Shown here one piece after another: positions 8,287 to 48,710 of a DNA stretch of 64,000 bases; positions within the stretch are counted from its first letter, which is position 1, and each line of letters starts with the position of its first letter. The DNA is from Treponema sp. (GTDB lineage Bacteria > Spirochaetota > Spirochaetia > Treponematales > Treponemataceae). Location: assembly GCA_024690865.1 (NCBI GenBank), contig JAILON010000089.1, positions 1 through 64,000 of the forward strand. The letters are read 5' to 3'. Made by a program: the position numbers and the translations under genes. Below the pieces are notes generated by a model. It was not told the DNA's origin, ran no database searches, and worked only from the letters and a program-made list of their open reading frames with translations.

Positions 8287-8316
8287 CGGCATTTGTCCGG
8301 AAGACTTGCTCCGGAA

Positions 8317-8484
8317 TGCTACAAGGCTTGTAGAAGAATGTTGCAAAGCTTGTACAAGAATGTTGCAAGGCTTGTACAAGAGTGTTGCAAGGCTTGTAGA
8401 AGAATGTTGCAAAGCTTGTGCAAGAATGTTGCAAGGCTTGTACAAGAATGTTGCAAAGCTTATACAAGAATGCTGTAAGGCTTA
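8317..8484. repeat. 22-bp tandem array, 7 full copies
   Basis: Seven units of 22 bp start at 8317, 8339, 8361, 8383, 8405, 8427 and 8449, with a decayed eighth at 8471. The consensus is TGTTGCAAGGCTTGTACAAGaa. It contains the palindromes TTGCAA and CTTGTACAAG, the latter perfect in units 2, 3 and 6. The period is not a multiple of three, so it is non-coding. The units are contiguous without spacers, so it is not CRISPR. It lies between the antiporter stop and the second HD-GYP gene. Confidence 0.92.
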
Positions 8485-8530
8485 CGCCCACGACGCTACG
8501 CACCTGCTGGCGTCGTGTGTCGTAAGCCTT
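8477..8530. terminator. long imperfect hairpin at the end of the 22-bp array
   Basis: Outer arms AAGGCTTACG (8477-8486) and CGTAAGCCTT (8521-8530) enclose inner arms CACGACGC (8489-8496) and GCGTCGTG (8510-8517). No long T run follows, so termination is possible but not certain. Confidence 0.55.
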
Positions 8531-18247: not shown

Positions 18248-18333
18248 GTCCGCGTCGTCGGGCTTCGTTAGTCCGCGTCGTCGGGCTTCGTTAGTCCGCG
18301 TCGTCGGGCCTCGTTAGTCCGCGTCGTCGGGCC
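18248..18333. repeat. 23-bp tandem duplication of the 3' end of the GGDEF-EAL gene
   Basis: Units begin at 18248, 18271, 18294 and 18317 (the last partial). Each contains the final codons and the TAA stop of the minus-strand gene, so three extra copies of the gene's end (PDDAD-stop) lie downstream of the functional one. Confidence 0.88.
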
Positions 18334-32431: not shown

Positions 32432-33187
32432 CTAGTTCTTGTTTATGACCTTCGTACTGACCTTCCCGCTTTCTATGTCCGTGAAGCGGACGTAGAGGGA
32501 AATCTTGTTCTCCGCGTTCAGGCTTTCCCAGACGGAACTGGCCAGGCTGTCCAGGTCCCCCTTCAGGCTGACGAGTTCCGGCTCCCCCTCGAAGCTGGGC
32601 AGCGGGTTCCCGTCCCCCATATAGGTGTGGATGTAGCGGCCTGTCCCGGCGGCGGGGCTTGCGTAGTCAAAGGTGTAGCGGAGCGTTCCCGGCTGATTGC
32701 CCGGCTGCTTGCCGGCCGTTCCTGCGGCGGGGAGCGTAGCGGGATCGCTTTTCAGGATTGAAAGGCTGAAGCTGTAGGTGCCCCCCTTGAACTTCTGGAT
32801 TCCAGAGATGCGGGGTGTGTAGTTGGGCGCGTCCGGCTCGAAGGTACGGCTTTCCAGCGAGCGCGGGAAGCTGGAGCCGTTCTTGAGCCCTTCGTATATG
32901 GTGTCGGTCTGGTCGCCGTTGGTGACGATGACGGTCGTCTTTCCCACTTCCGGCAGGACCCTGACCGGCGAGTAGATGATGAGGCTGGGGTCCTTCAGCT
33001 TGGACGGGTCGAACGCCTGCGTCCGCAGGCCGCCGTTTTCTTCTATAAATACCCTGTTCCTGCTGTTTTCGCTCCTGCCCATGATGAAGTAGAGTGCGAC
33101 GGCAGACTTCCCGTCCTCCGACTTGCCCAGGACAATTCCCCGTCCGGGATATACGTTCTCTTTCAGCTTCTTTTCCAGCGCGTCCAT
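32432..33187 (-). CDS. purO: IMP cyclohydrolase (PurO-like, single domain)
   Basis: 251 aa; AGGAGG precedes the ATG. The sequence matches the IMP cyclohydrolase family of anaerobes and archaea: PGRGIVLGKSEDGKSAVALY, FIMGRSENSRNRVF, TVIVTNGDQTDTIYEGL, FEPDAPNYTPRISGI and HTYMGDGNPLPSFEGEPE. It closes the inosine ring in the last step of purine synthesis, replacing the C-terminal half of PurH. A Gly/Pro-rich insert is present at ~155-170. Confidence 0.92.
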   Translation of the reverse strand: MDALEKKLKENVYPGRGIVLGKSEDGKSAVALYFIMGRSENSRNRVFIEENGGLRTQAFDPSKLKDPSLIIYSPVRVLPEVGKTTVIVTNGDQTDTIYEGLKNGSSFPRSLESRTFEPDAPNYTPRISGIQKFKGGTYSFSLSILKSDPATLPAAGTAGKQPGNQPGTLRYTFDYASPAAGTGRYIHTYMGDGNPLPSFEGEPELVSLKGDLDSLASSVWESLNAENKISLYVRFTDIESGKVSTKVINKN

Positions 33188-33272
33188 GATGGAGCCTCCT
33201 GTGTGCGTTTCAAGTGGGGCAACGGTGCCTGTCGCCCCTGTGTTTCCCTAGACTAGCACACAAACAGAAAAT

Positions 33273-33374
33273 TTGTAATATTGCAACAAAAAATTTACAA
33301 TATTGTAACGGAAAATTTACAATATTGTAACGGGAAAATTACAATATTGTAACGGAAAAATTTCAGTACTACAA
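33273..33374. promoter_or_regulatory. array of palindromic operator-like sites at 22-bp spacing
   Basis: TTACAATATTGTAA, a perfect 14-bp palindrome, occurs at 33295-33308, 33317-33330 and 33339-33352. A related TTGTAATATTGCAA is at 33273-33286 and a decayed copy at 33361-33374. All five centres are exactly 22 bp apart. The array lies between divergent purO and the WD40 gene in an AT-rich gap. It resembles a cooperative binding region for a dimeric regulator bound on one face of the helix. Confidence 0.75.
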
Positions 33375-33508
33375 AAAAAAATTTGCAGAAAAACAAAAAA
33401 ATGCAAAAAAAATGGCCAACGCACTAAAATTCTGTGCGTTGTACTCTAGTTTCGACTTTTGAATGACGCTATAATTCCCCCAGTTTTATAAAGTATAGGG
33501 CATGTAAG

Positions 33509-35290
33509 GTGTTTTCGTTTGGTTCTGCCGTTGGAGGTAAGCGGGGGCATGGCAGCGGCCTGCTCCTGGCTCTGAGCATTCTATTCTTTGTTTCTCGCCC
33601 CGGCTTTTCGGAAGGCCCCAGGCTGGTTATGACGGGCGACGTCCCTGTCCGCAGCTTGGTCTGGACGGACGGCGGCAGTTCCTTTGCCGTTGGCGAAGCG
33701 GACGGCATACGCATACGGGACCTGGACTCCGGGACTGTCCGCGCGTCCCTGCCGGTTCATGACGCGGGGGCGGTGGGCTTTGCCAAAGAATTCGGGCGCA
33801 GCGGCACCCTGTACGCCACCCTTTCCGACTCAGGGGAACTGTCCGTCTGGGACGTAGGGGAGGGGGAGGCCGTGCCCGCGGACATCGCTTTCATTGAAGA
33901 CCCCTTGGACGGAACCGTCGTTCCCATCGGCCAGCTCCGCTTTACGGCCCTGGCATTCAGCAGAAACAGCGACTGCATGGTGGCCGGAATGCAGGACGGC
34001 AGCCTGCGCCTCTTTTTCAAGCTGCGCTTTTCCAAGCAGTTCCTTATGCGCGAGACGGGCGGACAGACTGGCCGGATTACGGCCCTGGCATTCAGTCCCG
34101 ACGGTCGCTCCTTTGCCTCGGCCTCCGATGACGGCAGCGTCCTCCTGGTGAACGCGTTTTCCGTCAAACCGGTGGCCCGGCTTCCCTTTTACGCCGTAGA
34201 GGCCGATGGCCCCATCGATTTTGCCCCGGACGGAACCCTCGCGGCTGTCTTGGACAACCGGAGCGTGGTGTTCTACGGTAGGGATGGGGAACAGAAGGGC
34301 AGCCTCATCGTGGATTGCGACATACAGGCCGTCCGCTTTTGGGGCGGGGGCGACAGCCTGGCCGTGCAGGGGATGGACGGCAGCATATCCTTCTATAATA
34401 TAGCCTCAGGAGAGCGCTTTGCTTCGGTTCCCCCCGTCCAGGCTTCCACGCTCTGCTCCTTTGACTTCAGCGAGGACGGCCTGTCCCTGCTGGAAGGATA
34501 TGGGGACGGCACGGTGTACTGCTTTCCGCTGGCTGACTACCTGGCTCCGGCAGAACCGGAGGAGAATGCGGAGGACCCCGTGCAGACCGGCATTGCGGCT
34601 GCCCCAGAGGAGCCCCCGGCAGTCCCGGAGGAGGCACAGGTGGCTCCGGTGGCCGAGGAACCCCCGGCAGTCCCAGTGGCCGAGGAGCCTTTTGAGTACG
34701 ATGACTTTGAACCCTATGGTGAGGAAGAGGAAGATGTCGAGCCGCGGAAGCGGACATTCAAGGAAAACTTCACCAGCACGGGAAGGAACTCCATTTCACT
34801 CCAGGCGGGCGGAAGGCTGCTGCAGGACCCCTACGATGCGGCCGTGGAGCTGGACCTGTCCTTTCGGATGGGGACCCTGTTCCCGCCCTTCTATGTGGGG
34901 GCGGCCTTGAGCGGACAGCTGGGCAAATGCTTTGATGCGGACAATTACCCCAATTCATATACCTGGAAAGGGGAGGACCTTGCGCCGCCCCTGACGGAAG
35001 CCGCGACCCTCTACGTCCCGCTCGGCGTGGAGTTCGCCATACGGAATTCGGCGTTCAGCGTCTTCAGCGAGCTGCATGGAGGCGTGCGGGAAGTGATGCT
35101 CTGGCGGACCTGCGATGAAGGCCTGCTCCGGTCCAAGCCGCACTTTGTCCCCATGGCCGGCATCTATATGGGGGCACTGTTCCACGGCTTCATGCTCCAG
35201 GCCGGGGTGGACTTTGACCCGGTGCAACGATTTACGCCCGGCGTGCTGCTCGGATACAGCTTTACACTGCCGGGAGGAGGAAAGAATTGA
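33509..35290 (+). CDS. WD40 beta-propeller fused to an outer-membrane-like barrel domain
   Basis: 593 aa from a GTG; TAAGG lies directly before it with poor spacing, so the start is uncertain. A hydrophobic signal (GLLLALSILFFVSRPGFS) follows a basic N-terminus. Residues ~35-355 carry WD40-like repeats (ITALAFSPDGRSFASASDD, LRFTALAFSRN). A Pro/Glu/Ala-rich linker (~358-425) leads to a C-terminal ~165-residue domain (NSISLQAGGRLLQDPYDAAV) with Gly/aromatic strands ending GVLLGYSFTLPG. I infer a periplasmic propeller tethered to an outer-membrane barrel. The next gene's ATG overlaps the stop. Confidence 0.8.
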   Translation: MFSFGSAVGGKRGHGSGLLLALSILFFVSRPGFSEGPRLVMTGDVPVRSLVWTDGGSSFAVGEADGIRIRDLDSGTVRASLPVHDAGAVGFAKEFGRSGTLYATLSDSGELSVWDVGEGEAVPADIAFIEDPLDGTVVPIGQLRFTALAFSRNSDCMVAGMQDGSLRLFFKLRFSKQFLMRETGGQTGRITALAFSPDGRSFASASDDGSVLLVNAFSVKPVARLPFYAVEADGPIDFAPDGTLAAVLDNRSVVFYGRDGEQKGSLIVDCDIQAVRFWGGGDSLAVQGMDGSISFYNIASGERFASVPPVQASTLCSFDFSEDGLSLLEGYGDGTVYCFPLADYLAPAEPEENAEDPVQTGIAAAPEEPPAVPEEAQVAPVAEEPPAVPVAEEPFEYDDFEPYGEEEEDVEPRKRTFKENFTSTGRNSISLQAGGRLLQDPYDAAVELDLSFRMGTLFPPFYVGAALSGQLGKCFDADNYPNSYTWKGEDLAPPLTEAATLYVPLGVEFAIRNSAFSVFSELHGGVREVMLWRTCDEGLLRSKPHFVPMAGIYMGALFHGFMLQAGVDFDPVQRFTPGVLLGYSFTLPGGGKN

Positions 35291-44677: not shown

Positions 44678-46060
44678 TTGGGAAACGGTTTTAGCTTTGC
44701 TGGTGGTGATAAGCTTGGTAATATAGGAGCAACTTGGTTTGTTTCGTATTGTTATTACGATTGGATTGACATGTCGCATTTAAACTGGATGATGGTCGGT
44801 CATACATCTAGGAAAAGCGTATATGGTAGCACAAGGACATATCATCGTGGTTGGCTTAACGAAGTGTTAAAAATGGATGAAGACAGGCTGAATACAAATG
44901 CTATAAATCTTGATGCTCGTGATACAAAGAAGATGGCAAGGGGAATTTTGTCAAGACCAGAGTTTACGAATGCTTTTGAAAATTCTCTTGAAAAAGAATT
45001 GCTTAGAGCTATAAAAGAAAATAATACAGAGACAATCAAAAAGTTTATTGAAAAAAAGGACGAGAACGGTTTAACACCTCTTTTATTGGCAGTAAAAAAC
45101 AATGCTGTAGCGGTTGTAGGTGTGCTGGTCAATGCAGGTGCAGATACAAACGTATGGGATGATATCGGTTGGACTCCGCTGATGATTGCGGTTCAGAATG
45201 ATTCTATCGATATCTCTAGGTTGTTAATAAATGCAGGTGCAGATATAAACGCACTGGACAATGGCGGGCGGACTCCACTGATGATTGCGGTTCAGAATGA
45301 TTCTGTCGATATTGCCAGATTGTTGATGAATGCAGGTGCAGATATAAACGCAGTAGACAATGACGGTTGGAGCTCTCTTCATTTGGCTGCAAAAAGGAAT
45401 GTAACTGGTGTTACAAAATTGTTGCTTGATGCAAAAGTAAATATTGATTTGAAAGATAAGAAAAATTGCTGGATTCCACTGATAATTGCAATTCATAATA
45501 ATTCTGTTGATGTTGCCAAGTTGTTAATAGATGCAGGAACAGATATAAACTCAATGGATAAAAACGGATGGAGTCCTCTTCGGTGGGCTGCAAGAAATAA
45601 TGCTTCCGATATTGCAAAATTGTTGCTCGATGCAAAAGTAAATGTGGATTTGAGAAAGGGAAAAGACGGCTGGACGCCATTGATGACGGCTGCCCAGCAT
45701 AATTCTGTCGATGTCGCCAAGTTATTAATAGATGCAGGTGCAGATATTAATGTAAAAGACCATGACGGTTGGACACCTCTTATTTGTGCTGCGGTTAGAA
45801 ATTCAGTAGATGTTGCAAAAATTCTCCTAGAGGCAGGTGCCAACATAGAAGAAAAATCATTAAAAACAGAGTGGATAAATGAAAGAACAGCTGTTATGTG
45901 GGCTGTTTCAAATGATTCGAGGGATGTTGCTAAGCTGTTGTTTTATGCAGGCGCACGATTCGATATATCTTCAGACGATGGAAAGAAACTCTTAAAGATT
46001 GCGGAATTAGCAAGTCGTTTTGAAATAGCAAGTCTTATTCGCAGTGCCAAGAGTTATTAA
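44678..46060 (+). CDS. ankyrin-repeat protein
   Basis: 460 aa from the TTG at 44678, chosen because AAGGAG lies 6 nt upstream. The N-terminal ~115 residues (LGNGFSFAGGDKLGN...) have no recognised domain. From ~130 on there are about nine ankyrin repeats of 33 residues with TPLMIAVQNDS and LLINAGADIN cores. No signal peptide or membrane segment. The gene is markedly AT-rich compared with its neighbours, indicating horizontal origin. Confidence 0.85.
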   Translation: MGNGFSFAGGDKLGNIGATWFVSYCYYDWIDMSHLNWMMVGHTSRKSVYGSTRTYHRGWLNEVLKMDEDRLNTNAINLDARDTKKMARGILSRPEFTNAFENSLEKELLRAIKENNTETIKKFIEKKDENGLTPLLLAVKNNAVAVVGVLVNAGADTNVWDDIGWTPLMIAVQNDSIDISRLLINAGADINALDNGGRTPLMIAVQNDSVDIARLLMNAGADINAVDNDGWSSLHLAAKRNVTGVTKLLLDAKVNIDLKDKKNCWIPLIIAIHNNSVDVAKLLIDAGTDINSMDKNGWSPLRWAARNNASDIAKLLLDAKVNVDLRKGKDGWTPLMTAAQHNSVDVAKLLIDAGADINVKDHDGWTPLICAAVRNSVDVAKILLEAGANIEEKSLKTEWINERTAVMWAVSNDSRDVAKLLFYAGARFDISSDDGKKLLKIAELASRFEIASLIRSAKSY

Positions 46061-48490: not shown

Positions 48491-48710
48491 AACAGCTGTT
48501 ACGTGTGAGCCGAACAGCCGTTACGCGCATCCATAACAGCCGTTACGCGCGAGCCGAACAGCCGTTACGCGCATCCATAACAGCCGTTACGCGCGTCTAT
48601 AACAGCCGTTACGCGCGTCCATAACAGCCGTTACGCGCGTCCATAACAGCCGTTACGCGTGTCCATAACAGCCGTTACGTGCGAGCCGAACAGCCGTTAC
48701 GCGCGTCCAG
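48491..48710. repeat. 22-bp tandem array, ten copies
   Basis: Ten contiguous units start every 22 bp from 48491. The core is AACAGCCGTTACG with two tail versions (GCGAGCCG or GC(A/G)TCCAT). The first unit has the perfect palindrome AACAGCTGTT. There are no spacers, so it is not CRISPR. It lies between the divergent ATPase gene and the ferredoxin gene. Confidence 0.93.

Follow-up and report, generated by a model that had tools for sequence, protein, structure and literature searches.

The gap between a purO-like gene and the gene for a WD40-repeat protein in this Treponema genome holds five palindromic sites at a regular 22-bp spacing. Is such an array an operator for its two neighbors, a site for partitioning or organizing the chromosome, or one copy of something more widespread? 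The locus was analyzed within a window of 64,000 nucleotides (the whole stretch of DNA examined around it), in the rest of its own genome, and in related genomes.

The array and its setting

The features of the purO/WD40 gap and its borders are as follows.

32432 to 33187, minus strand: purO-like IMP cyclohydrolase (PF07826, E value of 5e-60), left neighbor, running leftwards from 33187
33265 to 33374, plus strand: whole array, five dyad sites with 22-bp spacing, orientation set by the spacer C-RRR-AAAT
33273 to 33286, plus strand: site 1, TTGTAATATTGCAA, three mismatches, right half GCAA, a typical first site of the family
33295 to 33308, no strand assigned: site 2, perfect palindrome TTACAATATTGTAA by sequence match
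33317 to 33330, no strand assigned: site 3, perfect palindrome TTACAATATTGTAA by sequence match
33339 to 33352, no strand assigned: site 4, perfect palindrome TTACAATATTGTAA by sequence match
33361 to 33374, plus strand: site 5, terminal and decayed, TTTCAGTACTACAA, five mismatches by sequence match
33414 to 33469, plus strand: dispersed hairpin repeat AACGCAC...GTGCGTT with the tail GTACTCTAGTTTCGACTTTT, recognized by sequence, adjoining the array and separate from it
33509 to 35290, plus strand: WD40-repeat protein, right neighbor, start at 33509 (GTG) or 33629 (ATG)

The preliminary description of this locus had reported five palindromes at exact 22-bp spacing in a divergent, noncoding gap. 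All five were found where described, with center-to-center distances of 22, 22, 22, and 22 bp, and comprise three perfect copies of TTACAATATTGTAA, one variant, and one decayed copy. The gap is indeed divergent, with purO reading leftwards from 33187 and the WD40 gene rightwards from 33509 or 33629, and the noncoding character of the array is likewise supported. Seven matches to the palindrome with three or fewer mismatches were observed in the window compared to 0.83 expected, and none of the shuffles of the window reached seven. GC content is ∼50 to 60% in most 2-kb bins of the window.

The repeats could conceivably act as tandem bidirectional promoters, in which a −35-like TTTACA is joined with the −10-like TACAAT of the next repeat. 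Five of the six promoter-like matches around the purO/WD40 gap fall in the array, compared to 0.8 expected in the whole region. However, these matches come from a consensus scan only, AT-rich repeats yield such matches, and GC-rich sister satellites of the same period do not have such hexamers in their units, which makes this reading very improbable. Two further candidates, a known RNA and a phage origin, were rejected: Rfam gave no match near threshold for the array, only matches at chance level, and viral contigs contained no exact two-site match.

Dispersed copies and their neighbors

A genome scan had been proposed to find out whether the motif is present only in the purO/WD40 gap, and this proved false. 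The genome is a draft metagenome-assembled genome of 3.85 Mb in 194 contigs with an estimated contamination of 7.65%, in which contig ends cut close to some of the arrays. A Borrelia P83/100-family protein and the presence of a Treponema metagenome-assembled genome among the named purO relatives point to a Treponema-like spirochete as the probable host. It contains 52 palindrome sites with at most one mismatch, grouped in 16 arrays on 16 contigs, while the reversed control pattern gave 0 sites. A module search added a single-module copy on contig C101. Masking the core as N in a further search brought in diverged copies on C83, C142:59392, and C183 as well as a variant-core array on C143. Counting about four single or diverged copies in addition to the 16 arrays, the family totals ∼20 dispersed copies. 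The core-masked search returned almost exclusively CAATATTG cores, indicating that the conservation of the palindrome is not merely a product of seeding the search with it. Every array checked sits between called genes and none lies inside a gene. With tandem intergenic repeats at several loci and a species-restricted distribution, these copies constitute a satellite family.

The genes that flank the arrays are unrelated from one array to the next. They encode phosphoglycerate mutase (gpmI), a ketoacyl synthase (fabF), a class I glutamine amidotransferase (hisH), a branched-chain permease, QueH (queH), a STAS protein with fucose isomerase, seryl-tRNA synthetase (serS), SSB (ssb) with a chemotaxis receptor, a sugar kinase, FtsJ, and an ABC-F protein, among others. 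For the 15 arrays with both neighbors called, by a simple gene caller written for this analysis, 11 gaps are divergent, 2 are convergent, and 2 are codirectional. Divergent gaps are enriched relative to all gaps of at least 200 bp (P = 0.0016), but only marginally so relative to other satellites (P = 0.048).

The location of the purO-gap array between both gene starts in a divergent gap is what would be expected of a dedicated operator of purO, the WD40 gene, or both, as had been suggested. This reading is largely refuted, and we regard it as hardly tenable, because ∼20 dispersed copies of the same array lie beside other, unrelated genes, two of them in convergent gaps. Alternatively, the arrays could be cooperative operators through which one lineage-specific transcription factor controls a regulon of ∼20 mostly divergent promoters. 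The conserved palindrome, the exact phasing, and the divergent setting of 11 of the 15 arrays are all consistent with a regulon. However, the unrelated neighbors and the two convergent gaps do not amount to a coherent downstream gene set, the distance from array to gene start ranges from ∼65 to 335 bp, and orthologous gaps in a related genome carry no array. We consider a regulon unlikely on this evidence.

Module layout, phase, and constraint

Written in a common orientation, all arrays read (T)TATTGYAAC-RRRAAAT-TTACAATA, repeating with 2-bp overlaps, and they start and stop in the register of the spacer-spanning inverted repeat TATTGYAAC-RRRAAAT-TTACAATA. In the first and last palindromes of an array, the outer halves are degenerate and the spacer-spanning inverted repeat is complete. 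This indicates that the natural module is the spacer-centered inverted repeat, with each perfect palindrome marking where two overlapping modules meet. The right half GCAA occurs in 12 of 15 first sites compared to 13 of 70 later sites (P = 1e−5), and the array ends often read GTATTG and CAATAC where the inner equivalents read ATATTG and CAATAT. Together, these signatures define a polar layout of a start unit, n middle units, and an end unit.

Substitutions are unevenly distributed within the inner units. Only 32 of 770 palindrome positions (4%) are off consensus, compared to 100 of 440 spacer positions (23%), so that the 14-bp palindrome is ∼5-fold less variable than the 8-bp spacer, in the same direction in all 15 arrays. 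Spacer positions 16 to 18 show mainly A/G variation. Interval length was 22 bp in 70 of 70 measured intervals, and no out-of-phase near-sites were found among the arrays measured. The palindrome thus looks constrained as judged from its variation among copies, and neutral decay should spare neither palindrome nor spacing. With palindrome and phase apparently held and the spacer drifting, the family can be used to test directly if bacterial satellites are protein bound or neutral.

A neutral satellite would arise by slippage duplication of a hairpin-prone unit and chance dispersal, with no protein involved. Several observations fit this: the genome is rich in 22- to 24-bp satellites of many sequences, copy number changes by whole units, and the strand folds better than shuffled sequences (z = −3.9). 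Against it, such a process should produce equal decay of palindrome and spacer together with indels, whereas the observed values are 4% versus 23% with zero phase breaks, and the start and end units are polar. A purely neutral origin seems to us quite unlikely, but palindrome conservation could partly reflect a copying mechanism rather than binding.

The pattern suggests instead that the arrays are recognized by a DNA-binding protein and are not merely a switch for two neighboring genes, and the modules are probably bound cooperatively and in phase by a sequence-specific protein. The idea of a cooperative operator therefore survives in part: phased, possibly cooperative binding fits the conserved palindrome and the 70 of 70 intervals, but a local purO/WD40 operator does not fit ∼20 copies beside unrelated genes. 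Phage repressor operators and ArgR boxes have palindromes about two helical turns apart, which places adjacent dimers on one face of the helix. The palindromes of the array are spaced in the same way, but the family has up to nine sites per array, ∼20 loci, no coherent gene set, and no known regulator. LytTR boxes, which also have 22-bp spacing, were rejected by reasoning only, as they are asymmetric direct repeats, in contrast to the strong dyad found here.

The closest parallels are with repeat families. The BOX elements of Streptococcus pneumoniae, boxA-boxB(n)-boxC, are short, dispersed, intergenic sequences that are thought to be nonautonomous mobile elements and can affect neighboring genes (PMC3049150). 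The array family resembles them in its dispersal over many intergenic places of one genome and in having distinct start and end units, between which the tandem middle modules vary in number. The likeness proposed is one of layout. The modules here are 22 bp long, overlapping, dyad symmetric, and rotationally phased, and no mobilizing transposase was identified for the family. Dispersed long-repeat noncoding satellite families are described as rare in prokaryotes, being reported only from Leptospira interrogans, where the repeats are 37 to 69 nt long, and Methanocella conradii (PMC6749651). As in L. interrogans, several families of intergenic tandem repeats are scattered in one genome and are largely species specific, but the repeats here measure 22 to 23 bp, and their palindromes are conserved while their spacers vary. 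The evidence is best explained by a BOX-like, lineage-specific dispersed satellite that belongs to this rare class of noncoding prokaryotic satellite families. No described 22-bp family in Treponema was found in the literature.

We consider it fairly likely that the purO-gap array is one copy of such a lineage-specific, dispersed, BOX-like satellite, with modules bound by a putative protein. The copies (∼20) with their polar layout, exact phasing, and variable copy number, and the gain, loss, or replacement of arrays at orthologous gaps, are observed. Each element opens with a start unit, continues with 1 to about 8 middle modules, and closes with an end unit. Every module is an inverted repeat GTATTGYAAC-RRRAAAT-TTACAATAC whose overlap with the next creates the 14-bp palindrome at each junction and the fixed 22-bp repeat. 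In the proposed mechanism, the element would have spread by copying into gaps, mainly divergent ones, where insertion may be least harmful, and its copy number would shift by whole-unit slippage or recombination. Dimers of a sequence-specific protein would bind the modules on one helix face, two turns apart, and could form a short nucleoprotein filament. Such binding would preserve both palindrome and phase, and the promoters on either side may be insulated or modulated by it.

Orthologous gaps and other repeats

The family was sought in 200 genomes of the genus, the array's own included. Clear relatives were found in one of the 199 others, G211, which is 61% complete and in which the purO array extends to the contig end. 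Hits in G084, G125, G136, G190, and G194 were discounted as chance level, since the counts were matched by those of the reversed control or the hit consisted of a lone AT-rich pair, and the family was found in none of 23 genomes from other families of the order. In its purO gap, G211 carries the 22-bp array TTTACACCAGTGAAACGAAAGA in place of TTTACAATATTGTAACGGAAAA, with the same frame but a different core (CACCAGTG versus CAATATTG). The C101 locus has one module in the array's own genome and two in G211, where the same divergent gap is exactly 22 bp longer. An unrelated 23-bp array occupies the STAS/fucI gap of G211, whose gaps orthologous to L014, L025, and L021 contain no such array. Conservation of spacing in relatives, the lack of which the preliminary description had named as a ground for refutation, is therefore partial: two G211 gaps, that of purO and one more, retain the 22-bp spacing, yet in this genome either the core of the motif or the entire array is often different or missing. 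Orthologous gaps with differing arrays provide a natural series for array origin, core change, and loss. Clean empty sites were sought in G211 and G077 and none was found, as alignments break outside the arrays, nor was a target-site duplication found for the family; for this reason, it is the distribution alone that suggests mobility.

This distribution also bears on whether the array is a partition site, as had been raised, or a chromosome-organizing site (of the parS or matS type). Dispersed, phased palindromes could by their anatomy nucleate a protein complex, as parS does with ParB. However, the array sequence is distinct from the parS consensus, and a canonical parS, TGTTTCACGTGAAACA, is clustered elsewhere, on contig C146, in three perfect copies and one near-perfect copy. 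Systems of the parS and matS type are normally conserved, and the array motif is lineage restricted and absent from nearly the whole genus. A partition role is thus most improbable.

A broader extension of the BOX-like satellite reading is a fast-evolving, chromosome-wide nucleoprotein system, in which a lineage-specific protein would occupy phased arrays at transcription unit boundaries, and sister species would differ in the recognition core but share the 22-bp frame and spacer. We offer this as a speculative and rather improbable proposal. If it were true, arrays and protein would coevolve, and the other 22- to 23-bp satellites would be arrays of sister proteins with different specificity.

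Such satellites are numerous. In 1.18 Mb of sequence from the genome, a sample that is enriched for the purO-gap family but includes 31 arrays from other families, phased arrays peak sharply at a period of 22 bp (48 arrays after removal of masked contigs), followed by 23 bp (16 arrays) and 24 bp (13 arrays). The remaining periods from 13 to 43 bp have about 0 to 9 arrays each, and a second peak at 44 bp is twice 22. G067, another member of the genus, has just one period-22 array in 200 kb. The 23-bp family CTGGTGYYRCCACGATGRRCTAT is found at well over 10 loci in the genome (L091, L096, L339, L351, L359, and others), varies mostly by transitions, and is shared with G077, whereas no copy was found in G211. 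Conversely, the 23-bp family of G211 was not found in the array's own genome or in G077.

A REP/RAYT element was rejected as an identity for the array, since no single-copy Y1 transposase dedicated to the repeat and flanked by it was found. The genome contains two IS200-like elements with a Y1 transposase, 93% identical, in L359 (C121) and L360 (C35); neither copy is flanked by the array family, and no link to the family was found. The C121 copy lies ∼130 bp from a 23-bp array.

Family arrays neighbor other dispersed repeats. The hairpin repeat at 33414 to 33469 has more copies in the genome and in G077 and G211, and a 46-bp dispersed repeat, GGGAACCGCCTCGCCCGTTGGGCCGTAGCGTCAAGGCTATACGTTT (L014:4852-4897, L025:7043-7088, and L351:18598-18643), adjoins family arrays in L014 and L025. 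The window itself holds further repeats. At 8314 to 8483 is an intergenic 22-bp tandem array of GAATGTTGCAAGGCTTGTACAA (7.7 copies), after which the dispersed hairpin repeat GCCCACGACGCTACGCACCTGCTGGCGTCGTG begins at 8486. A 23-bp tandem array of GTCCGCGTCGTCGGGCTTCGTTA lies at 18248 to 18332 (3.7 copies, 98% matches), and GC-rich 22-bp units of AACAGCCGTTACGCGCGTCCAT (∼10 copies) occupy a divergent gap at 48491 to 48709, with a relative on contig C4 (L074). Ankyrin-like coding tandem repeats of 99 and 201 bp at 45131 to 45820 fall in a stretch of lower GC content (∼40%).
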